Shown here in pieces: positions 931 through 23,669 of a stretch of 64,000 nt of DNA. The notes below the pieces were generated by a model. It searched no databases. It was not told where the DNA came from and saw nothing but the letters and a program-made list of their open reading frames with translations. The position numbers were made by a program, and so were the translations under genes. The stretch comes from Gemmatimonadota bacterium (GTDB lineage: Bacteria; Gemmatimonadota; Gemmatimonadetes; Longimicrobiales; Gaopeijiaceae): positions 1-64,000 of the forward strand of contig JAQBXY010000014.1 in NCBI GenBank assembly GCA_027623325.1, given 5' to 3'. How positions within the stretch are numbered: position 1 is the first letter of the stretch; every line of letters begins with the position of its first letter.

Positions 931-1311
931 TCAGGGCTCGGGGTCGCCGTCGAAGCCGATTCCGAGGTGATCGATCAGGCGATCCTCGATCTCATCGCGT
1001 AGTCCCTGGTCCCGAAGCCGCCCGAGTACGTGCCGGACCCGGTGCCGAGTGACCGTGCGGATCTGCTGCGGCATGACAATGCTCTCGAGGTCGTTACCCG
1101 CCGCGCCTGCTGGCAGCAGTACTTCGAACGCGTAGACCTGTCGCTGTTTTCCCGCTCGCTTGGTAATAGGCAGGATGGTGACCAAGCCCGAGTGGCGGTT
1201 GAAGCCGTCGTTCGAAACGACCAAACAGGGGCGCGCGCCTGCCTGCGCGCCGCCCTGCGTCGGGTCGAGATCGACCAGGACCATCGACCAGCGGAGCAGC
1301 CCGCTGGGCAT
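931..1311 (-). CDS. MazF/PemK-family toxin endoribonuclease
   Basis: Predicted 126-aa mRNA interferase of a type II toxin-antitoxin system. Family hallmarks are present: an N-terminal VLVDLDPTQGG strand pair, the RPCLVVSNDGFN segment that carries the catalytic Arg and Ser/Thr region, ILPITKR, and a closing IRTVTRHRV strand. Length is normal for MazF. The ATG at 1311 was chosen because it overlaps the antitoxin stop as TGATG, implying coupled translation, and because a longer upstream reading is Arg-rich and unlike the family. The toxin lies downstream of its antitoxin, the usual order. Confidence 0.85.
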   Translation of the reverse strand: MPSGLLRWSMVLVDLDPTQGGAQAGARPCLVVSNDGFNRHSGLVTILPITKRAGKQRQVYAFEVLLPAGAAGNDLESIVMPQQIRTVTRHRVRHVLGRLRDQGLRDEIEDRLIDHLGIGFDGDPEP

Positions 1312-1610
1312 CAAGGTCGATCTGCGTCGAGGCCGTCGCGGAGGGCGACGTCGAACGCCTGTGCCGTGGCCGCCATGCCAGCCACCCACACGTCGTCCTC
1401 GGCCGCCCGCGCGTATTCACTGTAGAGGCGGCGCTGGTCCAGCGCCCGCAACTCGCGCCGGAGGGCTCGCTCCACGAACTCGTTCTGACTCTTCGCTTCC
1501 CCGGCGTCGACCGCTTCGCGCACCTGCATCACGACGCTTGCCGGGAGCCGGTAGCCGGTCTTTGCCGTGGGGTCTGGCCCTTGGGTCTTCGGCCTCATGC
1601 CAGCAAACAT
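1311..1610 (-). CDS. Ribbon-helix-helix antitoxin partner of the MazF toxin
   Basis: A small protein of about 99 aa whose middle reads TGYRLPASVVMQVREAVDAG then AKSQNEFVERALRREL, the strand-helix-helix pattern of CopG/MetJ-type DNA-binding antitoxins. The acidic C-terminus (RDGLDADRP) is typical of the toxin-neutralising tail. The start is uncertain: ATGs at 1619, 1610 and 1598 are all possible. I chose 1610 because a palindrome ends right before it. The frame stays open upstream, but there it runs through the transposase remnant. Confidence 0.7.
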   Translation of the reverse strand: MFAGMRPKTQGPDPTAKTGYRLPASVVMQVREAVDAGEAKSQNEFVERALRRELRALDQRRLYSEYARAAEDDVWVAGMAATAQAFDVALRDGLDADRP

Positions 1611-1629
1611 GCCACCCATATCGGGTGGC
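1611..1629. promoter_or_regulatory. Candidate autoregulatory operator of the toxin-antitoxin pair
   Basis: A perfect 7-bp inverted repeat, GCCACCC / GGGTGGC, with spacer ATATC, lies immediately upstream of the chosen antitoxin ATG. Ribbon-helix-helix antitoxins commonly bind such short palindromes over their own promoter. Function is inferred from position and symmetry only. Confidence 0.45.
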
Positions 1630-1716
1630 GTCAACAACTGGCGCCCTACGCGGCGTTGGTGCATGGCCGGCTTCTCTCCTCCAGTGCGGGCGACGGTCTT
1701 GGAGCCAGCGGGGCAC

Positions 1717-1917
1717 CTCGTCCAGCGCGATGTTCGCGTACGTACGCTGGCCACCGGGCCTGCCGCTGGCCGGAGCCCGCTAGGCATCGAGCGCCTCATC
1801 TGAAAGCCACACGGTCACGTCGCCACGACGCCGAAGGCCTGCCTCGTACTCAGGCCAGTTCCGTATCCGATACTGAGACTTCGCGCGCTTGTACTGGCTT
1901 CGCTTCGGATACTTCAT
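1717..1917 (-). pseudogene. N-terminal remnant of an IS5-type DDE transposase
   Basis: The frame begins MKYPKRSQYK, passes NWPEYEAGLRRRGDVTVWLS and DEALDA, meets TAG at 1780-1782, and continues in the same frame as RAPASGRPGGQRTYANIAL before homology is lost. This is the conserved head of IS5-family transposases, where the position of the TAG normally holds Trp (DEALxxWRAP), so TGG has probably mutated to TAG. The DDE domain is absent, replaced by DNA upstream of the antitoxin. A decayed insertion sequence with no activity. Confidence 0.6.
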
Positions 1918-2002
1918 CGCTGGCGGCTCCGGGTCAGGGGCTTCTCCTTTCAACGAAACCTAGACCATGAGCCATGCACCAACGCGACGTCGGACGACCG
2001 TC

Positions 2003-2515
2003 CTACCGCGACGGTCCTCCGAATCGAAACATCACCGATGCGACGCCCCCGCTCGGCGCGACGACCACCACGTACGCCCGATCGTATTCCATCTCCCCGA
2101 TGGGCTCTCCGGCGTCACCGCCGAGAGCGGCGACCAGCTCGGCGTTGGTGTTGCTGTGTCCGACGACCAGGTGTCGCCCGGGTGTAGAACGGAGCCGTTG
2201 AGCAAAGGCGCGCAGATCGGCGGGCGCATAGAGGGCGGGCGTGATGCCCGTGGCGCCAGCAATGGGTTCGATTGTCGATCGAGTGCGTTTGTAGTCGGTG
2301 GTGTGGATGTGGGTCAGGCGTGCCTCCCGCATCATACCGGCGATCCGTCGAGCGCGATCCCAGCCGGCGTCCGAGATGGGAGGGTCATTGGTACCGTCTT
2401 CGGCACGTTCTGCGTGCCGGACCACGAAGACAACAACGGGCTGTTCCTGAGCGGCCGCGAGGGTCGGTGCCGCGAGGAGCAGGGCGACCAGCGGGACGAA
2501 AATTCGACGGTGCAT
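2003..2515 (-). CDS. Secreted histidine phosphatase family protein (SixA-like)
   Basis: A 170-aa protein with a signal peptide (residues 1-22: MHRRIFVPLV, a hydrophobic run, then AAAQ). The mature part opens with the phosphohistidine motif FVVRHAERAEDG (RHA, catalytic His) and later has LVVGHSNTNAEL, carrying the second catalytic His of branch-1 histidine phosphatases. The small single-domain size matches SixA/phosphoglycerate-mutase-like periplasmic phosphatases. The ATG at 2515 has AGGGG about nine bases upstream. The substrate is unknown, and it stands alone between two remnants. Confidence 0.85.
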   Translation of the reverse strand: MHRRIFVPLVALLLAAPTLAAAQEQPVVVFVVRHAERAEDGTNDPPISDAGWDRARRIAGMMREARLTHIHTTDYKRTRSTIEPIAGATGITPALYAPADLRAFAQRLRSTPGRHLVVGHSNTNAELVAALGGDAGEPIGEMEYDRAYVVVVAPSGGVASVMFRFGGPSR

Positions 2516-2555
2516 CGACGGACCCCTGAGCTTTGCTCCCTTTTCACCCATGGTC

Positions 2556-2909
2556 TCAGAACCCGACCTGGAAGTTAACGAGGATCTTGTGTGGCGACGA
2601 GCTGTCCGAAACCGGGGCCATCCAATCGACCTGGATTTCCGACGCCGAGGTCGGCCACCATTGAACCCTAGAAGTGCCATGTCATCGCTCACGCCACCGA
2701 CAGGGCGGTAGCGGTCCCAACGAAGGAGGACCTGAGAAGGTCCCGATGGACCAGTTGGCACCCGTCCCGACCCGTCCGCCGACCTGCACGCCCATCTGAC
2801 GGCCAGGCGCGAGCGCATCGACCACTCGGGAACGATTCACGAAATCGATGGCCAGGGCGAACGTGAGCAACTCGCGACTAAACACCGGCAGGCCCGCAAC
2901 ATCGTTCAT
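2556..2909 (-). pseudogene. Collapsed phosphate-selective porin (OprO/OprP type)
   Basis: Two parts of one outer-membrane beta-barrel lie in different frames. The upstream part (2909 to about 2720) reads LPVFSRELLTFALAIDFVNR then VVDALAPGRQMGVQVGGRVG, typical of OprO/OprP-type porins. The downstream part (about 2655 to 2556) reads ASEIQVDWMAPVSDSSSPHK then ILVNFQVGF and stops, with the terminal Phe expected of a barrel protein. The centre is deleted and the frame shifted. The original protein would be several times longer. Confidence 0.55.
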
Positions 2910-2922
2910 TGAACGAGACGGA

Positions 2923-4056
2923 TCACAGCCAACCCTTCCTCCGGAACTGCCAGAGCATCCCTCCGCCGATGATGGCCATGAACGTCAGCAGCGCGGGGTA
3001 GGCCCATCGGACCCCGAGTTCGGGCATGTACTCGAAGTTCATTCCGTACAGCCCGGCGAAGAACGATAGGGGAATGAAAATGGTCGCGATGATCGTGAGC
3101 ACTTTCATCACTTCGTTCATGCGATTGCTTACCCCGGACAAGTAGAGATCCATCGCCCCGGACAGCACCTCGCGCAGCGTTTCGACGGTGTCGATCACCT
3201 GGACGGAATGATCGTAGACGTCACGGAGAAACACGCGCGTTTCATCCGTGATCTGAGGGAGCTCACCGCGGTAGAGTTGACCGAGCGTCTCGCGCAGCGG
3301 CCAGACCGCTCGCCTCAATATGAGCATCTCTCTTTTCAGTCCGTGTATACGCTTCATGACCTCCATCGATGGATCATCGAGAACCGTGTCTTCGAGCGCC
3401 TCGATCCGGTCGCCGATGGTCTCGAGGATCCGGAAGTAACTGTCGACGATGGCGTCGATGAGTGTGTACGCGAGATAGTCGGTGCCCCGGGTCCTAAGGC
3501 GGCCCTTGCCGTGACGGAGCCTCTCTCGCACGCCCTCGAACACGTCGCCGGGTCGCTCCTGGAACGAGAACAGGTGCCGCTGGCCCACGATCAGACTGAG
3601 CTGCTCGGACACCACCGACTCGGTCGCCTCATCGAACGACAGCATGGTGAGGATCACCAGGAAATGGTCGTCGAACTCCTCGACCTTGGGCCGCTGAGTC
3701 GTGGACAGTACGTCCTCGAGCGCGAGCGCGTGGACCCCGAATCTCTCTCCGACTGCTTGAACGATGTCCACCTCGTGTAACCCATCGATGTTCACCCAGC
3801 TGATACGGGGCCCCTCGGCGTATGAAAAGCTCTCCTCGATGGTGCTCAAGGTCAGCTCTTCGATTCGGTCAACGTCGTAGTCGATCAGGCGGAGTCGTAC
3901 CTGCTCCATCTTGCGCCGACCCGTATGAAAAAGCGTACCAGGAGCCGACCCTGGAGCTTTCTTGGCGTGGCTGACCATCCGGCCGACCACACTCCGAACG
4001 CCGCGCGCACGGGCGACGATCGATTCCGCAGGTCTGGTCGGAACAGTCGCTGACAT
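2923..4056 (-). CDS. corA: Magnesium/cobalt transporter CorA
   Basis: A 377-aa inner-membrane divalent cation channel of the CorA/MIT family. The first about 310 residues form the cytoplasmic funnel and long stalk helix. Two C-terminal membrane helices follow: one begins LTIIATIFIPLSFFAG and ends in the selectivity motif YGMNFE, the other is YPALLTFMAIIGGGMLW. The protein ends in the basic tail RRKGWL, normal for CorA. GGAGAT precedes the ATG. Transcribed away from the channel gene to its right, so the roughly 180-bp gap between them carries divergent promoters. Confidence 0.95.
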   Translation of the reverse strand: MSATVPTRPAESIVARARGVRSVVGRMVSHAKKAPGSAPGTLFHTGRRKMEQVRLRLIDYDVDRIEELTLSTIEESFSYAEGPRISWVNIDGLHEVDIVQAVGERFGVHALALEDVLSTTQRPKVEEFDDHFLVILTMLSFDEATESVVSEQLSLIVGQRHLFSFQERPGDVFEGVRERLRHGKGRLRTRGTDYLAYTLIDAIVDSYFRILETIGDRIEALEDTVLDDPSMEVMKRIHGLKREMLILRRAVWPLRETLGQLYRGELPQITDETRVFLRDVYDHSVQVIDTVETLREVLSGAMDLYLSGVSNRMNEVMKVLTIIATIFIPLSFFAGLYGMNFEYMPELGVRWAYPALLTFMAIIGGGMLWQFRRKGWL

Positions 4057-8304: not shown

Positions 8305-11300
8305 TTAGCCTCCTCGGCGCGGCACCTCGATTGCGGCTCCTGGGTCGGGCCGGATTCCTTCCTGATCGAGTGAATCGTTGAACGCGGGCATTCGCTCCGT
8401 GATGAGTGCGTTCACCCGCTCGATGAGACCGGGCGCGGCGGCCCAAGCGGCCTCGACCCGCCACAGTTGGTCTTCCGTCGGGAGGGTCGACGACTGCTGG
8501 ATCGCTCCTGCGACTCCAGCGTGCCCGCGGGCCACACCCAGCTCGCGCTCGATGGCGGCGACTTCCGCCTGGATCGCCTCGAGCTCGTCGCTCAACGCGG
8601 ACGGCCTGTCTTCGTGCGTTGTGAGTAGCGCCTCGGCTTCAGAGAGCTGACTACTCAGACGCTGGGCGGCCTCGGTCGCACGATAGAGGGGTTCCGCGAG
8701 TTGGTGAAGGCTCATGAGCGCTTCCTGTCGCGTCGCCCGGTCCGCGGCCGTCATAACCCGTCGTGGATCGGCTTGGATCTCCACCGTAGAGCTGTGCGTG
8801 CCCCCCGCGGCGTTTAGGGTGACGGTGTAAACGCCCGGGAGCGCGATCGGGCCCTGTGGGGCACCACCTCGTCCGCCGCCGCCACCCGCGCCACCCCTGC
8901 CGCCGCCGCCGGCGCCCGATTCCGGCTCGTAGGGTCGATCGAACCGCCAGTCCCAGACAACCTCATGGATGCCCTCGCCGCCGGGCCCCTCAATCGTTCG
9001 GATCCGCCTGCCCTCGGCGTCGCTGAGGGTCAACGCGACGCGGCCCTCGTCTGCCATGGCGTCGCGCAGATAGTACCGAATCGGGGTGGCGCGGGGAGGG
9101 TTGCTGCCCGAGTACGTCGCGCCGTAAAACGGCCAGTCTCCGCGTTGGGCCCACATGATCGTCGTTCGGCTCGGAAAGACCACCGCAGCCTCTGTCATCA
9201 CAGCGGCCGACAAACCTTCCAGAGGGGAGATGTCCTCCATGATCCAAATGCTCCGACCGTGCGTCCCCACGATCAGGTCGTTCTCGCGGGGGTGGATCAA
9301 GATGTCGTCCACCGGAACCACCGGAAGGTTGTTCTTGAGCGCCGCCCAGCTGTCACCCCGGTCGATCGAGACGAAGACGCCCACCTCGTTGCCGACGAAA
9401 AGCAGGTCTGCGTTGCGGTGGTGTTCGGTAATGACGTTCACCGACCACCCGTCGGGCAGGCCACGCGTGATCGGTCGCCAGCCGCGACCGAAGTCCTCGC
9501 TCACGTAGACGTAGGCGGAGAAGTCGCCGTTACGGTGTCCGTCGAAGGTCGCGTAAACCCGACCGGGCGCGTGTGCCGATGGGGTGAGCCGGCTCACATA
9601 GGTGCGTTCGGGCAGATCTCGGATGTTGGTGCCGATGTCTTCCCACGTGGTGCCACCGTTCATCGTGACTTTCACGTTGCCGTCGTCCGTACCCACGTAG
9701 ATCACGTCAGGAGAGAACCTCGACTCGCCCACGGCCGTCAGATTCCCGTAGTTCGACGTACCGTCGTGAATCGACATCATGGGTTGATCACCGGAAACGC
9801 CCATGATCTCGAGGCGGTCTCGGTCGATCTGTTTCGTGAGGTCGACTCCTCCGACCTCCTCCCAACTCATGCCGCGATCCCGAGAGCGCATGAGGTAGTT
9901 CGCGCCAAGGTAGATCGTTCGCGGATCGTGCCTGGAGATGAGGAGAGGACTATTCCAGTTGAATCGGTACTCTTTCGTTGAATCGCCCGCCTCGCGCGGC
10001 CCGGTGATCGGCTGCATGGGCGTCTTTTCGCCCGTAGTGAGGTCGTAGCGGTTCATGTTCCCGCCCTGCGTTTCCGAGAAGACGATGGTCGAGTCGGTCG
10101 GATCGACGACGGTCCAGAATCCGTCGCCGTACGCGGTCTCGTACCAGTCCTGATTTCGGATGCCGTGGAAGGAGCGGGTGTTCGAGGGGCCGCACCACGG
10201 GTTGTTGTCCTGAAGGCCCCCGCACACAAAGTACGGGTCGCGCATGTCGTATCCGATGGCGTAGAACTGACCAAGCGCGATGTTGTCGAACATGCGCCAG
10301 TGTGCGGCGCCGTCCCACGACGCGGCCACTCCGCCGTCGCTCCCGATTATCAGGTGGTCCGGGTCCTGAGGGTTGACCCACAGCGCATGGTGATCGACGT
10401 GGATCTGTTCGGCTCCGTCGCTCCGGAACGAACGGCCCCCGTCGTCGGAGATCATGAGATCGGAGCCCAGAACATAGATCCGGTCTGGATTGGTCGGGTC
10501 GATCCGAACCTGCGAGTAATACATCGGCCGCGGGTTCGTGTCCGAGACCTTCTCCCACGTCGTGCCCCGGTCCAGCGAACGGAAGAGGCCACTACGGCTT
10601 GAGCCGCCGCCGCCCCGTCCACCACCACGGCCGCTGTTGGCCCGCTGAGCATCCGCCTCGACCAGCGCATACACGATGTTGCCGTCCTGTCTGTACACGT
10701 CGATGCCGATGCGGCCCTTGTCGCCCGTCGGCAGGCCGTCGGTCAGTTCCATCCAGCTTTTTCCACCGTCAACGCTGCGGTACAGCCCACTTCCCGGACC
10801 GCCACCGTTGAAGCCCCATCCGGTGCGTTGGCGCTGGTACATCGCCGCGAACAGGGTACTGGGATCGGCCGGATCCATTGCGAGGTCGATGGCGCCCGTG
10901 AAATCATCGATCGACAGGACGTTCTCCCACGTCTCCCCGCCATCGGTCGTCTTGAACACGCCTCGGTCCGGACTCGGCCCCCACAGGTTCCCGACGGCCG
11001 CCACATATACGATGTCAGGGTCGCGTGGATGGATCACGATGCGCGCGATATGCCGCGTCTCGTCGAGACCCATGTGGGTCCAGGTGAGTCCCGCGTCAGT
11101 CGACTTGTACACGCCATTGCCCCACGGAGACGACTGACGGTTCTGCGGTTCACCCGTGCCGACCCAGATCAAGTTGGGGTTGGGCTGGTGGAGCGTGATG
11201 TCCCCGATCGAACTGGTGGATTGTTCGTCGAAAAGCGGCGTCCATGAGGTGCCGTGGTTCTCCGTCTTCCAGACCCCTCCTGTTGCGGTCCCCAGATAGA

Positions 11301-11481
11301 AGACCTGCGGGCGGGATTCCACGACAGCGAGATCTGCGATCCGTCCGCCCATCAACGCCGGTCCGACCTCCCTGTACTCCAAGCGGGAGATCGTGGTCGC
11401 CAGGTCAGGATTCTGACCCTTGGCAGAGGATGGAAGTAGGACCAGGAGCCCAGCCAGGGCGAGGCGACGGTTGCACTTCAT
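8305..11481 (-). CDS. Large secreted BNR/Asp-box beta-propeller protein (sortilin/VPS10-like)
   Basis: A 1058-aa exported protein with a signal peptide ending near residue 22. Residues about 30-760 form a propeller-like array marked by repeated Asp-boxes such as STDAGLTW, TTDGGETW, SVDGGKSW, SDDGGRSF, SRDRGMSW, SEDFGRGW and SIDRGDSW. A beta-sandwich follows (VALTLSDAEGRRIRTIEG), then a Gly-rich linker (about residues 880-905), a VYTVTLNA strand and a helical end. Databases often label such proteins glycosyl hydrolases, but no catalytic residues can be assigned here. The family is expanded in Gemmatimonadota. Transcribed divergently from the creatininase gene. Confidence 0.92.
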   Translation of the reverse strand: MKCNRRLALAGLLVLLPSSAKGQNPDLATTISRLEYREVGPALMGGRIADLAVVESRPQVFYLGTATGGVWKTENHGTSWTPLFDEQSTSSIGDITLHQPNPNLIWVGTGEPQNRQSSPWGNGVYKSTDAGLTWTHMGLDETRHIARIVIHPRDPDIVYVAAVGNLWGPSPDRGVFKTTDGGETWENVLSIDDFTGAIDLAMDPADPSTLFAAMYQRQRTGWGFNGGGPGSGLYRSVDGGKSWMELTDGLPTGDKGRIGIDVYRQDGNIVYALVEADAQRANSGRGGGRGGGGSSRSGLFRSLDRGTTWEKVSDTNPRPMYYSQVRIDPTNPDRIYVLGSDLMISDDGGRSFRSDGAEQIHVDHHALWVNPQDPDHLIIGSDGGVAASWDGAAHWRMFDNIALGQFYAIGYDMRDPYFVCGGLQDNNPWCGPSNTRSFHGIRNQDWYETAYGDGFWTVVDPTDSTIVFSETQGGNMNRYDLTTGEKTPMQPITGPREAGDSTKEYRFNWNSPLLISRHDPRTIYLGANYLMRSRDRGMSWEEVGGVDLTKQIDRDRLEIMGVSGDQPMMSIHDGTSNYGNLTAVGESRFSPDVIYVGTDDGNVKVTMNGGTTWEDIGTNIRDLPERTYVSRLTPSAHAPGRVYATFDGHRNGDFSAYVYVSEDFGRGWRPITRGLPDGWSVNVITEHHRNADLLFVGNEVGVFVSIDRGDSWAALKNNLPVVPVDDILIHPRENDLIVGTHGRSIWIMEDISPLEGLSAAVMTEAAVVFPSRTTIMWAQRGDWPFYGATYSGSNPPRATPIRYYLRDAMADEGRVALTLSDAEGRRIRTIEGPGGEGIHEVVWDWRFDRPYEPESGAGGGGRGGAGGGGGRGGAPQGPIALPGVYTVTLNAAGGTHSSTVEIQADPRRVMTAADRATRQEALMSLHQLAEPLYRATEAAQRLSSQLSEAEALLTTHEDRPSALSDELEAIQAEVAAIERELGVARGHAGVAGAIQQSSTLPTEDQLWRVEAAWAAAPGLIERVNALITERMPAFNDSLDQEGIRPDPGAAIEVPRRGG

Positions 11482-11673: not shown

Positions 11674-13437
11674 ATGAACAAGACGTTCTTGGCTGCGGCC
11701 GCCCTCATGCTCGTAGCATCGACGGCCCACGCTCAGCAGCAGCGTGACCCCAACTCGATGGGCGGTGGGAACTGCGCGGACAACGTATACAACTGCGCGA
11801 CGACGCCGAATCCACTCCCTGCGCCCAACACGGTGTGGATCGAGGAAATGACGTGGATGGATGTCCGCGATGCGTTGGCCGATGGAAAGACCACCGTGAT
11901 CATTCCCACGGGTGGGGTCGAGCCCAACGGCCCTTGGCTCGCGACGGGGAAGCACAATTTCGTGCTCCGAGCGAACTGTGACGCGATCGCTCGCGAGCTG
12001 GGTAACGCCCTGTGCGCGCCCATCATCAAGCTCGTCCCGGAAGGCGACATCGAGCCTCCGAGCAGTCACATGACGAGTCCGGGCACGATTTCCATGCGCC
12101 AGGAGACGTTCGAGGCGATGCTGACCGACGTTGCGCACAGCCTCAAGATGCACGGCTTCCGCAACATCATCTTCATCGGCGACAGCGGTGGGAATCAGAG
12201 CGGGCAGCGAGCCGTAGCCGAGCGACTGAACGCGAAGTGGGATGGCACGGTGGTCGCGCATGTCCAAGAGTATTACGACTACGCGACCGTCACCCGATAC
12301 ATGGAGTTCCGTGGCCTGCGGCAGGGCGAGGGAGACGGGTTACATGACGACCCGGTGATCGCTCTGAACATGTTCGCGGACGACCCGTCCTCGATTCGTT
12401 ATGCCGAACGTGCAGCGACTGGGAATGCGACCATCAACGGTGTGTCCCTGGCGGACCGCGTTCAGAATGTGGAGTGGGCGCGAGAGATCGTTTCGTTCCG
12501 GGCGACGGAGACAGCTCGCCATGTCCGTCGAGCAATCGGGCAGGGTGGGACGACCCCTACGCCGCAGCGCGCCGGAGGCGGTGGTGGACGCGGCGGTCAG
12601 GGCTTCCAGCGTCCCGCTCCCGATCCGCGCTCGATGGGTGGTGGGGAATGCAGCGCGAGCCCCTTCAACTGCGTCGATACACCCAATCCGCTGCCGGCAG
12701 CGAACACGGTTTGGATCGAGGACATGACGTGGATGGACGTCCGTGATGCTCTGGGCATGGGGAAGACGACCGCGATCATCGCGACGGGGGGCATGGAGCC
12801 GAACGGTCCCTGGCTGGTGACTGGAAAACACAACTACGTCCTCCGGGCCAACTGCGATCGAATCGCTCGCAAGCTGGGCGACGCCTTGTGCGCCCCCATC
12901 CTGGAGCTCGTGCCAGAAGGTGGGATCGAGCCGCCCACAGGGCATATGACCAGTCCGGGAACGATCAGTCTCCGCGAGGAGACGTTCGCGGCGGTGCTCA
13001 CCGACATGGCGGAGAGCCTCCGGCAGCACGGCTTCGACAACATCGTCTTCATCGGTGACAGCGGGGGGAACCAACGCGGCATGGAGTCGGTCGCCACGGC
13101 GCTCAATGCGAAGTGGGGTGGCGCGGCGAAGGCGCACTTCATCGCCGAGTACTACCGTGCACCGGCGGGATCGCGCGATGTCCTTCGTGAGCTCGGAGTG
13201 ACTCGGGACGGAATGGCGAGTGACGGGCTGCATGACGACATCGGGATCACGCTCAACATGATGCTCGACGATCCGAATTCCGTCCGCTGGGCGGAACGGG
13301 TGGTGACGGGGCAGGCCGTCATCAACGGCGTCGACATCTCCGACCTGACGCAGTCCCTCGTGTGGGCGGAAGAGGTCGCAAACGAACGGTCGGAGCGGAC
13401 CGCAAAACTCATCCGCGAACGGATCGGAATGGAGTAG
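11674..13437 (+). CDS. Secreted tandem-domain creatininase family protein
   Basis: A 587-aa protein: signal peptide (residues 1-20, ending STAHA), creatininase-like domain 1 (about 30-290), Gly-rich linker (about 291-318), domain 2 (about 320-587). Each half starts with a Cys pair (C34/C41; C326/C333) and shares WIEEMTWMDVRDAL-like, SPGTIS and INGV segments, so it is an internal duplication. The metal-site motifs differ from classical creatininase: EQHGPHL is EPNGPWL (E83, N85; E375, N377), the later Asp is His in TGKHN (H94, H386), and NGHGGN is GDSGGN (D170, D462). It may bind metal differently or act as a non-canonical amidohydrolase. CGGAGAA precedes the ATG. Confidence 0.9.
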   Translation: MNKTFLAAAALMLVASTAHAQQQRDPNSMGGGNCADNVYNCATTPNPLPAPNTVWIEEMTWMDVRDALADGKTTVIIPTGGVEPNGPWLATGKHNFVLRANCDAIARELGNALCAPIIKLVPEGDIEPPSSHMTSPGTISMRQETFEAMLTDVAHSLKMHGFRNIIFIGDSGGNQSGQRAVAERLNAKWDGTVVAHVQEYYDYATVTRYMEFRGLRQGEGDGLHDDPVIALNMFADDPSSIRYAERAATGNATINGVSLADRVQNVEWAREIVSFRATETARHVRRAIGQGGTTPTPQRAGGGGGRGGQGFQRPAPDPRSMGGGECSASPFNCVDTPNPLPAANTVWIEDMTWMDVRDALGMGKTTAIIATGGMEPNGPWLVTGKHNYVLRANCDRIARKLGDALCAPILELVPEGGIEPPTGHMTSPGTISLREETFAAVLTDMAESLRQHGFDNIVFIGDSGGNQRGMESVATALNAKWGGAAKAHFIAEYYRAPAGSRDVLRELGVTRDGMASDGLHDDIGITLNMMLDDPNSVRWAERVVTGQAVINGVDISDLTQSLVWAEEVANERSERTAKLIRERIGME

Positions 13438-13448
13438 GAGTCGGCCCA

Positions 13449-14681
13449 ATGAACCTCGACTTCGCGCGGAGCCAGTTCCCCGCGCTCGATGGTGACTGGG
13501 TCTACTTCGACAACGGTGGGGGCTCACAGATCCTGCAGCCGGTCCTGAACCGGCTGCAAGACTACCTCATCACCTCCAATGTCCAGCTTGGTGCCTCGTA
13601 CGGTGTCTCGCGACGGGCCGCGTCACGTCTGGCCGAAGCTCAGGCCGCAATGGCGGTGCTCGTCAACACGAACGATCCCGCCGAGATCGTTATGGGCCCG
13701 TCGACCTCCGTGCTCTTGCGAACGCTTGCAGCGAGCGTCGGGGAAACGATCTCTCCCGGGGACGAGATCGTCGTCACCAACGCGGACCACGAGGCCAACG
13801 TCGGTCCCTGGCTCGCGCTGGAGCGACGAGGAGCCGTACTTCGCTTCTGGGAGGCGGACCCCACATCTGGCGAACTTCGCCTGGAAGATCTCTTGCCACT
13901 CCTGGGTCCTCGGACACGGCTCGTCTCCGTCACGCATGCCTCGAACATTCTCGGCACCATCAATCCGATTCGGGCTATCGCCGATAGGGTGCACGCCGAG
14001 GGAGCTCTGCTTTGTGTCGACGGGGTCGGGTACGCACCGCATCGCGCGGTGGACGTAGGAGAGCTCGACGTAGACTTCTATGCCTTCAGCTTCTACAAGA
14101 CCTTCGGTCCGCACCACGCGGTTCTGTACGGGCGGAAAGAGCTCCTCTTGGATCTGCCGGGTCAGAGTCTCTCGTTCATCTCCGAGGACGACGTCCCGTA
14201 CAAGTTCCAACCCGGGAATGTGAACTACGAACTCAGCTACTCCATGCTGGGGCTGACCGACTATCTCACGGCGCTCGCGTCCGGAGGAGTCGGAGTCGAC
14301 GCGCTTCCGGTTGCGGTATCTCGGACTGCGATCGAAAGGGCGTTCGTACTGATCGCGGCTCACGAGGAGGTGCTGAGTCGCCGCCTCCTCGATTTTCTAA
14401 CGGACAGGCCAGGCGTAAGACTTCTCGGAAACGTGCTCCCGGATCAGGCGCTGCGCGTTCCGATCATCTCCTTCGTCATCGATGGTATGAAGAGTGCGGA
14501 TGTCGTCCGGGAAATCGATGCGCATCGGATCGGCATCCGCTTTGGGAACTTCCATTCTCCGCGACTCGTCCGTGCGCTGGGACTCGACGGGGATGATGGA
14601 GTTGTGCGGGTGAGCATGGTCCACTACAACACCGTCGAGGAGATCGATCGACTCACGGCGCTCCTCGACGCTCTGGTCTGA
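13449..14681 (+). CDS. Class V aminotransferase (cysteine-desulfurase-like)
   Basis: A 410-aa PLP enzyme of fold type I. N-terminal VYFDNGGGSQ, TNADHEANVGPW, the Asp-containing strand LLCVDGVGYAPH and the PLP lysine in FSFYKTFGPHH (K217) place it in the SufS/CsdA-like class V group. The small C-terminal domain ends with IGIRFGNFHSPRLVRALG. It starts 11 bp after the creatininase stop, with AGGAG overlapping that stop, so the two are probably co-transcribed. No catalytic Cys loop can be assigned, so desulfurase versus lyase or transaminase activity is open. No signal peptide is present. Confidence 0.9.
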   Translation: MNLDFARSQFPALDGDWVYFDNGGGSQILQPVLNRLQDYLITSNVQLGASYGVSRRAASRLAEAQAAMAVLVNTNDPAEIVMGPSTSVLLRTLAASVGETISPGDEIVVTNADHEANVGPWLALERRGAVLRFWEADPTSGELRLEDLLPLLGPRTRLVSVTHASNILGTINPIRAIADRVHAEGALLCVDGVGYAPHRAVDVGELDVDFYAFSFYKTFGPHHAVLYGRKELLLDLPGQSLSFISEDDVPYKFQPGNVNYELSYSMLGLTDYLTALASGGVGVDALPVAVSRTAIERAFVLIAAHEEVLSRRLLDFLTDRPGVRLLGNVLPDQALRVPIISFVIDGMKSADVVREIDAHRIGIRFGNFHSPRLVRALGLDGDDGVVRVSMVHYNTVEEIDRLTALLDALV

Positions 14682-22391: not shown

Positions 22392-23669
22392 ATGCATCGC
22401 CGCCAGTTCATACGCCGCCTGAGCGCGGGAGCGCTCGCTCTGCAGCCGGGCGCCCTGGAGCTCGCCGAGCGGGCCTCGCGCACGGTCGAGGGACGGACGC
22501 CCCAGGAGGTCGCGCGCGACGAGGACTACTGGTTCGAGATCCGCCGCGCATTCACGATCGACCCGAACGAGATCAATCTGAACTCCGGCAGCGTGAGTCC
22601 GGCGCCGCGGGTGGTGCAGGAGGCCGTGCAGCACTACCAGACGATCACCAACATGAGCCCCTCGCTCTGGGTGGACGAGATGATGGGCCCGCATCGCGAG
22701 GTCGTGCGGAAGCGTCTCGCGGCGCTGGCCGGCGCCGATCCCGAGGAAATCGCGGTCACCCGCAACACGTCGGAGTCGCTCCAGATCGTTCAGTTGGGGA
22801 TGAACCTCCAGCCAGGCGACGAGATCCTGCTGACCACGCAGGACTACCCCCGCATGATCACGACCTGGCAGCAGCGTGAACGGCGCGACGGCGTCGTCTT
22901 GAAGATGTTTCCCGTGCCCTCTCCTCCCGAGGACCCGGCAGAACTGGTGGAGCTGTACCGCCGCGCCCTCACGCCCCGGACGCGGGTCGTACATATGTCG
23001 CACGTCACCTTCACGGCCGGGCAGATCTTCCCCGTGCGTGAGATCTGCGCGATGGCGCGGGAGCGCGGGATCCTCACCGTGGTCGACGGCGCCCACTCGT
23101 TCGCACACTTCCCGTTCACGCTACCCGAACTCGGCTGCGACTTCTTCGGGACGTCGCTCCACAAGTGGCTCACGGCACCGGTGGGTACCGGCCTGCTGTA
23201 CGTGCGCCGCGAGCGAATCGGGGAGATCTGGCCACTCACGCCGGCCCCCGCTTCGCTCGACCACGACATCCGCAAGTTCGAGCAGATCGGGACGTTCCCG
23301 CTCGCGATCCCCAACGCGATCGGCGAGGCCGTGACCTTCCACGAGAGCATTGGAGGCGAGCGGAAAGCCGAGCGCCTTCGCTATCTCCGGCGACGCTGGA
23401 TGGATCAGCTCGTCGGTGTGCCCGGTGTGCGGTTCTACACCGCCAACGACGACGCCCAGGCCGGCGCGCTCGCCACCATGGGGATCGCCGGAATCGGGGC
23501 CGCCGATCTCACTGAACGGCTGCAGGCGGAGTATTCGATCCATGTGCGCCCCCGCTTCGTCGACGGTGAATGGGAGGGCATCCGGGTCACGCCCAACGTG
23601 TTCAGCACGCTCGAGGAAGTGGATACCTTCGCCGTGGGGATCCGGAAGATCGCGGCGGGCGGTCCCTAG
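22392..23669 (+). CDS. Tat-exported class V aminotransferase (isopenicillin-N-epimerase-like)
   Basis: A 425-aa PLP enzyme with a twin-arginine leader (MHRRQFIRRLSAGALAL). Core motifs: LNSGSVSPAPRVV, VTRNTSESLQIVQLGM, LLTTQDYPRMITTWQQR, VDGAHSFAHFPF (Asp and His at the cofactor), the PLP lysine in FFGTSLHKWLTAPVGTG (K258), and a C-terminal domain ending VRPRFVDGEWEGIRVTPNVF. This is the epimerase/lyase-like branch of class V enzymes, often found in the periplasm in this type of organism. It sits alone between two copies of a 150-bp direct repeat, indicating that the gene was inserted as a unit at the 3' ends of its neighbours. Confidence 0.92.
   Translation: MHRRQFIRRLSAGALALQPGALELAERASRTVEGRTPQEVARDEDYWFEIRRAFTIDPNEINLNSGSVSPAPRVVQEAVQHYQTITNMSPSLWVDEMMGPHREVVRKRLAALAGADPEEIAVTRNTSESLQIVQLGMNLQPGDEILLTTQDYPRMITTWQQRERRDGVVLKMFPVPSPPEDPAELVELYRRALTPRTRVVHMSHVTFTAGQIFPVREICAMARERGILTVVDGAHSFAHFPFTLPELGCDFFGTSLHKWLTAPVGTGLLYVRRERIGEIWPLTPAPASLDHDIRKFEQIGTFPLAIPNAIGEAVTFHESIGGERKAERLRYLRRRWMDQLVGVPGVRFYTANDDAQAGALATMGIAGIGAADLTERLQAEYSIHVRPRFVDGEWEGIRVTPNVFSTLEEVDTFAVGIRKIAAGGP

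Follow-up and report, generated by a model that had tools for sequence, protein, structure and literature searches.

Creatininase (creatinine amidohydrolase, 1j2t/1q3k) is a hexamer, and we take its metal ligands to be Glu34, His36, Asp45, His120 and Glu122, with Glu34, Asp45 and His120 presumably the columns of metal 1. The mycofactocin peptidase MftE has PF02633 kinship in common with the chain described here and, unlike that signal-bearing chain, is presumably cytoplasmic. In one report MftE appears as a creatininase homologue able to cut a peptide (PMC10885120); another presents SMc02977, the formamidase of riboflavin synthesis, as a creatininase homologue with another amide substrate (PMC9478397). 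As described there, SMc02977 works in an intracellular riboflavin pathway, and it is likened to our chain by description. IolN, the 3-dehydro-scyllo-inosose hydrolase, supplies our chain's best NCBIfam score (NF041098, 78.3 bits), yet this is far under the cut-off of 245. The scores for the creatininase equivalog (TIGR04448, 76.6 bits, cut-off 235) and the MftE equivalog (TIGR03964, 62.1 bits, cut-off 172) were also below cut-off, and NCBIfam returned no model specific to the GKHN branch, the part of PF02633 to which the chain belongs.

A fused creatininase-fold chain with an altered site

The window, by which we mean the whole 64,000-nucleotide stretch of DNA that was analysed, contains a stop-free open reading frame of 587 residues, running on the plus strand from an ATG at 11674 to a TAG at 13437 (Table 1). 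Pfam matches the whole chain to PF02633 (Creatininase) in two stretches (2.3e-54, 184.8 bits against a cut-off of 31.3), and a whole-genome search found both halves singly, at 98.8 and 90.2 bits against the same cut-off. The halves are 62% identical to each other and are joined by a Gly/Arg-rich linker (pLDDT below 50 at residues 300-311 of the whole-chain model). Residues 1-20 look like a Sec-type signal, and the chain thus looks exported. The initial annotation's claim of two creatininase-like domains in one exported chain is borne out by the two PF02633 stretches and the signal-like start. A scan for promoters and terminators gave no signal above shuffled sequences.

Table 1. Positions in the window of the fused gene's parts, its motifs and the adjacent gene
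Feature	Position	Strand	Basis
Signal-peptide-like N-terminus, residues 1-20	11674..11733	+	sequence MNKTFLAAAALMLVASTAHA; pLDDT <50 at residues 1-21
First creatininase-fold half, residues 21-300	11734..12573	+	PF02633; residues 38-292 modelled alone
Cys34...Cys41 pair, half 1	11773..11796	+	co-presence among 182 distinct cores
E83-P-N85, half 1 (E34 column kept, N for His36)	11920..11928	+	alignments, 182-core recount
G92-K-H94-N, half 1 (His for Asp45)	11947..11958	+	alignments, 182-core recount
G169-D170-S171-G-G-N174, half 1	12178..12195	+	sequence, 182-core recount
H224-D225-D226, half 1	12343..12351	+	sequence, domain sets
Second creatininase-fold half, residues 310-587	12601..13434	+	PF02633; Z 16.6 to creatininase over 344-586, whole-chain model
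Cys326...Cys333 pair, half 2	12649..12672	+	sequence; 182-core recount
E375-P-N377, half 2	12796..12804	+	sequence
G384-K-H386-N, half 2	12823..12834	+	sequence
G461-D462-S463-G-G-N, half 2	13054..13071	+	sequence
H520-D-D, half 2	13231..13239	+	182-core recount
Class V PLP enzyme, candidate operon partner	13449..14681	+	PF00266 2.9e-61; 11-nt gap

Structure prediction gave confident creatininase-fold models for both halves, the first modelled alone (residues 38-292: pLDDT 96.2, pTM 0.93) and the second within the whole chain (pLDDT 89.2, pTM 0.90). All 26 Foldseek rows with E below 0.001 are creatininase-family entries. With VIA-align, the whole chain reached Z 15.7-16.6 to the creatininase family, the next value being 7.3, while residues 38-292 reached Z 18.1-19.7 to 12 creatininase-family entries, with the next unrelated entry at 8.2. 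Creatininase itself (Z 19.6-19.7) has the same fold, and its Glu34 and His178 columns are retained here; the differences are a signal-like start, paired domains, 18% identity in the structural alignment and the replacement of His36 by Asn, Asp45 by His and His120 by Ser. These assignments come from PDB sequence alignments, which place E83 over E34, N85 over H36, H94 over D45 and S171 over H120. Over the five columns that we take to be creatininase ligands (E34, H36, D45, H120 and E122), the fused chain therefore keeps Glu at the first and has Asn, His, Ser and Gly at the others, the last by reading GDSGGN against NGHYEN. The 3' motif is altered too, from HAGxxET to HDD, with H224 in the column of the motif's His. 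In the whole-chain model strand 164-169 precedes S171 and helix 175-188 follows it.

The same altered motifs, E-P-N-G, G-K-H-N and G-D-S-G-G-N, had been reported for both halves, and this proved correct (E83/E375, H94/H386, D170/D462). GKHN occurs in none of the printed PDB chain alignments (9 and 8 chains), and checking against characterised creatininases showed that the altered motif is not standard there.

An N-terminal cysteine pair in each half, with disulfides as the suggested consequence, had also been proposed. The idea is well supported, although the count is four pairs rather than two: all 8 cysteines of the chain fall into the pairs 34/41, 102/114, 326/333 and 394/406. Among 182 distinct cores (defined below), 92 have both C34 and C41, 82 have neither and 8 have gaps; for C102 and C114, 155 cores have both and 25 neither, one has an unpaired cysteine and one a gap. 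Because paired cysteines are kept or lost jointly across relatives, disulfides are likely in each half of the fused chain.

Distribution, fusion and genomic context

The changed motif is not peculiar to the fused chain; by sequence it is standard across a large branch of PF02633. The window's genome alone has 13 PF02633 matches, of which 7 are ordinary E-x-H domains (one carrying Asn in place of Asp45) and the other 6, in 5 genes, are changed domains. At locus L016 (7655-13360, contig 14 of G000) three further changed-type paralogs with signal-like starts lie within 6 kb; two of them are adjacent, beside a DUF1028 gene (PF06267), and the ORFs around them look like hydrolases on reading. Relatives at E of 1e-20 or better were found in 114 of 298 genomes of the phylum. 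Among the matches listed in that 298-genome search, the fused form occurs in 35 genomes, all of the window's family group f1 (in G182 it was reported as two pieces in a single open frame), and single-domain forms occur in other families as well. Named genomes contain at least 571 related stretches. The best 80 of these include 16 fused ORFs and carry titles from Gemmatimonadota, Acidobacteriota, Planctomycetota, Verrucomicrobiota, Gammaproteobacteria and one Cyanobacteria, although titles of metagenome-assembled genomes may be wrong.

Alignment with single-domain relatives showed that they carry the altered motif as well. Parallel retention in the two halves had been offered as evidence for function. 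The motif is indeed in both, but a single-domain ancestor already had it, so the parallel is not independent evidence. A tree of 83 domains groups the Cys-bearing domains in one clade (support 100) and the 16 second halves in a clade of their own (95). The 16 first halves fall on one side of a branch, against the second halves and the L158 pair, an arrangement that is not fully resolved, and single-domain rows lie on the second halves' side of it. With this grouping one origin of the fusion suffices. The L158 pair (1074-3085 of an Acidobacteria MAG contig) consists of two adjacent unfused genes resembling the two halves, the second being sister to all second halves (99) and the first falling among single-domain genes (93); an unfused pair fits better than a split fusion, although an assembly error could also account for the arrangement. 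Other fused pairs exist in other subgroups: L176 and L184 combine EQKG..GEHK..GESGGN with EKNG..GKHN..GDSGGN, and L066 is another. Since these come from different subgroups, fusion of two such domains has occurred more than once.

The H-D-D motif hints that the two sites of fused proteins may have begun to differ. All 34 distinct first-half cores have H-D-D, whereas the 37 distinct second halves read HDS (24), HDN (7), HDD (4) or HDG (2), so that 33 have S, N or G as the third letter; in the window itself the second half retains HDD.

The gene immediately downstream encodes a class V PLP enzyme, and co-transcription had been considered probable. The 11-nt gap and the common strand keep this plausible, and the PLP gene recurs after the fused gene at 3 of 7 other loci of the window's genus (L020, L021, L024; 58-61% identity), but none of the 22 fused loci of other genera has it within 1.5-kb flanks. 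Any functional link would thus be confined to this genus. That comparison covered 29 of the 34 other fused loci from the phylum search. Around the 16 fused loci of named genomes, with flanks of up to 6 kb, nothing matched the PLP gene at 13449, and a second class V PLP gene of the window gave one weak match, at L153. This second gene (22392-23666) has a twin-arginine-like start, a PF00266 match at 6.8e-44 and 25% identity to the first. The divergent upstream gene (8305-11481) encodes a large Vps10/BNR propeller protein (PF15902, 2e-30), of which no relative was found in the 29 other fused loci. Of the 16 named-genome loci, 6 have a sodium:solute symporter nearby, 7 an FAD amine oxidase and 5 a GYD protein. 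Within about 6 kb of 29 of the best 80 loci, all single-domain and in several phyla by MAG title, lie DUF1552, PSCyt (DUF1592 and others) or ankyrin genes; DUF1552 has 1-13 copies per genome in 20 genomes mostly chosen for having it nearby. Neighbouring genes were taken from crude callers, and families were named for the representatives given to Pfam only. No substrate can be read from the genes next to the fused gene, which differ between loci.

Conservation and order of changes at the site

The 182 distinct cores are the subfamily domains from the phylum set and the named-genome set, canonical rows having been dropped beforehand. In them we counted E83 in 180/180, N85 in 179/180, H94 in 181/181, D170, S171 and N174 each in 182/182, Y201 and H224 each in 180/180 and D225 in 177/180. 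On sequence grounds, conservation across 182 distinct cores excludes chance as the source of the site changes. We stress that part of this set was retrieved with the GDSGGN pattern, so that the sample is biased towards D170 and S171; for this reason PF02633 domains were then gathered by the Pfam profile, from 12 genomes behind named-genome loci and 41 genomes of the class. The sequences used are a subset of the matches, made up of the returned loci, the window-genome loci and 52 chosen regions, with near-copies of genus g63 omitted.

At the E34, H36, D45 and H120 columns, the 124 distinct domains of this set read E-H-D-H in 63 cases, E-(N/K)-H-S in 39 and E-(N/R/S)-H-H in 6, the other 16 being canonical variants and fragments. 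The changes are coupled. Where both columns have letters (122 domains), H94 is accompanied by Asp or Glu at 170 in 45 of 45, and domains lacking H94 have Asp or Glu there in 0 of 77; a single acid near H224, at 225 or 229, is present in 44 of 44 rows with data. Both halves of the fused chain have the residues that mark the GKHN branch, namely E83, H94, D/E170, H224 and an acid at 225 or 229. Signal-like starts, by a crude rule, were seen in 30 of 39 S171 rows, 4 of 6 H171 rows and 9 of 79 canonical rows, second halves and truncated loci being unable to show one.

Visualizing relatedness with the motif columns taken out, we observed that the H94 rows occupy one side of a single branch, both in a quick tree (support 98) and in a careful build that includes three plasmid relatives (99/99; 47 rows, both halves of the fused chain among them), although many long branches make placement in these trees unsure. 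As the coupling is restricted to this one clade, it may represent one or few evolutionary events. All 47 rows keep E83, H94, the acid at 170 and H224, and the H224-side acid stands at 225 (29 rows) or 229 (18), never at both. Column 171 is Ser in 38 rows and His in 9, the latter on several branches, and the starred branches force at least two changes between them. His was likely the first state, since the outgroup has it; the H171 rows L267 and L270 and the plasmid rows, lying within S171 groups, then require reversals or repeated gains of Ser. Ser171 is accompanied by Asn174 in 38 of 38 rows and His171 by another letter at 174 in 9 of 9. Asn174 occurs in many canonical rows, and its absence from the H171 rows indicates that these are sisters rather than ancestors, with S171 and N174 behaving as a unit. 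This unit is the best point in favour of a role for the serine. The plasmid relatives themselves (L280, L281 and L282, from Burkholderia, Rhizobium and Paraburkholderia) are of the H171 type, and a YncE/YVTN propeller gene follows in all three opened, annotated as such in two and recognized by reading in the third.

Accounts of the site and their meaning

From these observations we hypothesize, with the balance tipping modestly in its favour, that the chain is exported and acts by metal-dependent hydrolysis, each half having a rebuilt metal site of permuted ligands. One metal, or an asymmetric pair, would sit between E83, H94, D/E170 and H224, which would replace E34/H36/D45/H120 plus a further Glu, and D225 (D/E229 in sister lineages) might serve as ligand or base. 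In the periplasm, water activated by metal would open a small ring such as an amide or a lactam; the disulfides would stiffen each half, and the fused pair may stand in for a dimer contact of the creatininase hexamer. An acid at 170 occurs alongside either His or Ser at 171, so an exchange of His and carboxylate between two ligand columns fits the retained ligand set. The initial annotation had argued for a functional, different metal site rather than decay. Conservation, coupled changes and confident fold models uphold function, while the metal site stands as a prediction. Absence of the characterised enzyme's ligand residues is what a decayed or non-catalytic copy would show, but the site does not vary over 182 distinct cores, among them both halves of fused proteins, and this makes decay very improbable.

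A metal-only account leaves the pairing of S171 with N174 unexplained, and a serine hydrolase built on the creatininase fold would use it, with a possible Glu83-His94-Ser171 triad in the three metal-1 columns and a strand-turn-helix at G169-D-S171-G-G173 resembling a nucleophile elbow. The invariance of S171 in the 182 cores, its place between strand and helix, its constant company with N174 and the presence of esterases among the next-best folds (Z about 6-8) all speak for such an enzyme. However, His takes the place of the serine in 9 of the 47 clade rows, over several branches, and G169 is also found in 4 of 6 H171 rows, so the glycine was not acquired for a serine. As for the fold, residues 38-292 reach Z up to 8.2 to a carboxylesterase, equal to an unrelated dehydratase, and VIA-align values below about 8 may reflect merely a common arrangement. 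We regard the serine enzyme as distinctly unlikely. There is somewhat more room, though it is still a speculative proposal, for a natural switch from one catalytic strategy to another on a single fold. In a binuclear amidohydrolase site, His and carboxylate would have traded places between columns Asp45 and His120, and most lineages would have taken Ser, always with Asn174, at a former metal-ligand position. The outcome would be a mononuclear two-His/carboxylate centre with new chemistry or, failing that, a Ser-His-Glu triad free of metal.

That the chain is instead a periplasmic metal-binding or metal-handling protein devoid of hydrolase activity seems unlikely. Two of the three plasmid relatives (Burkholderia, Paraburkholderia) lie among metal-handling genes (P-type ATPase and multicopper oxidase; Nramp and cupredoxin), and a YncE-like propeller gene lies downstream of all three; yet these relatives are of the H171 type, unlike the fused chain, whose neighbours include the sodium symporter, amine oxidase and GYD protein genes counted above. 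Conservation of the full polar residue set, Y201 and N174 included, also argues against mere metal handling. An ordinary binuclear creatininase-type amidohydrolase, with changed letters and the chemistry and two metals unchanged, would agree with the common fold and columns, the kept E34 and H178 columns and the acids that are still abundant. We nevertheless hold it to be quite improbable, given that three of the columns taken as creatininase ligands have changed jointly in 39 of 124 domains and that the chain falls far below the cut-offs of the creatininase, MftE and IolN models.

A literature search, mainly outside subscription journals, found no characterised member or study of the GKHN branch. 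Relatives are annotated as 'creatininase family protein', yet the branch lacks most residues of the creatininase metal site. If the site is truly rebuilt, several hundred genes (at least 571 related stretches) would be named for the wrong chemistry, and the branch would show ligand reshuffling documented at the sequence level, sister forms included, on a fold for which many structures of the parent enzyme have been solved. Should the switch of catalytic strategy prove real, living H171 and S171 members would let it be replayed.
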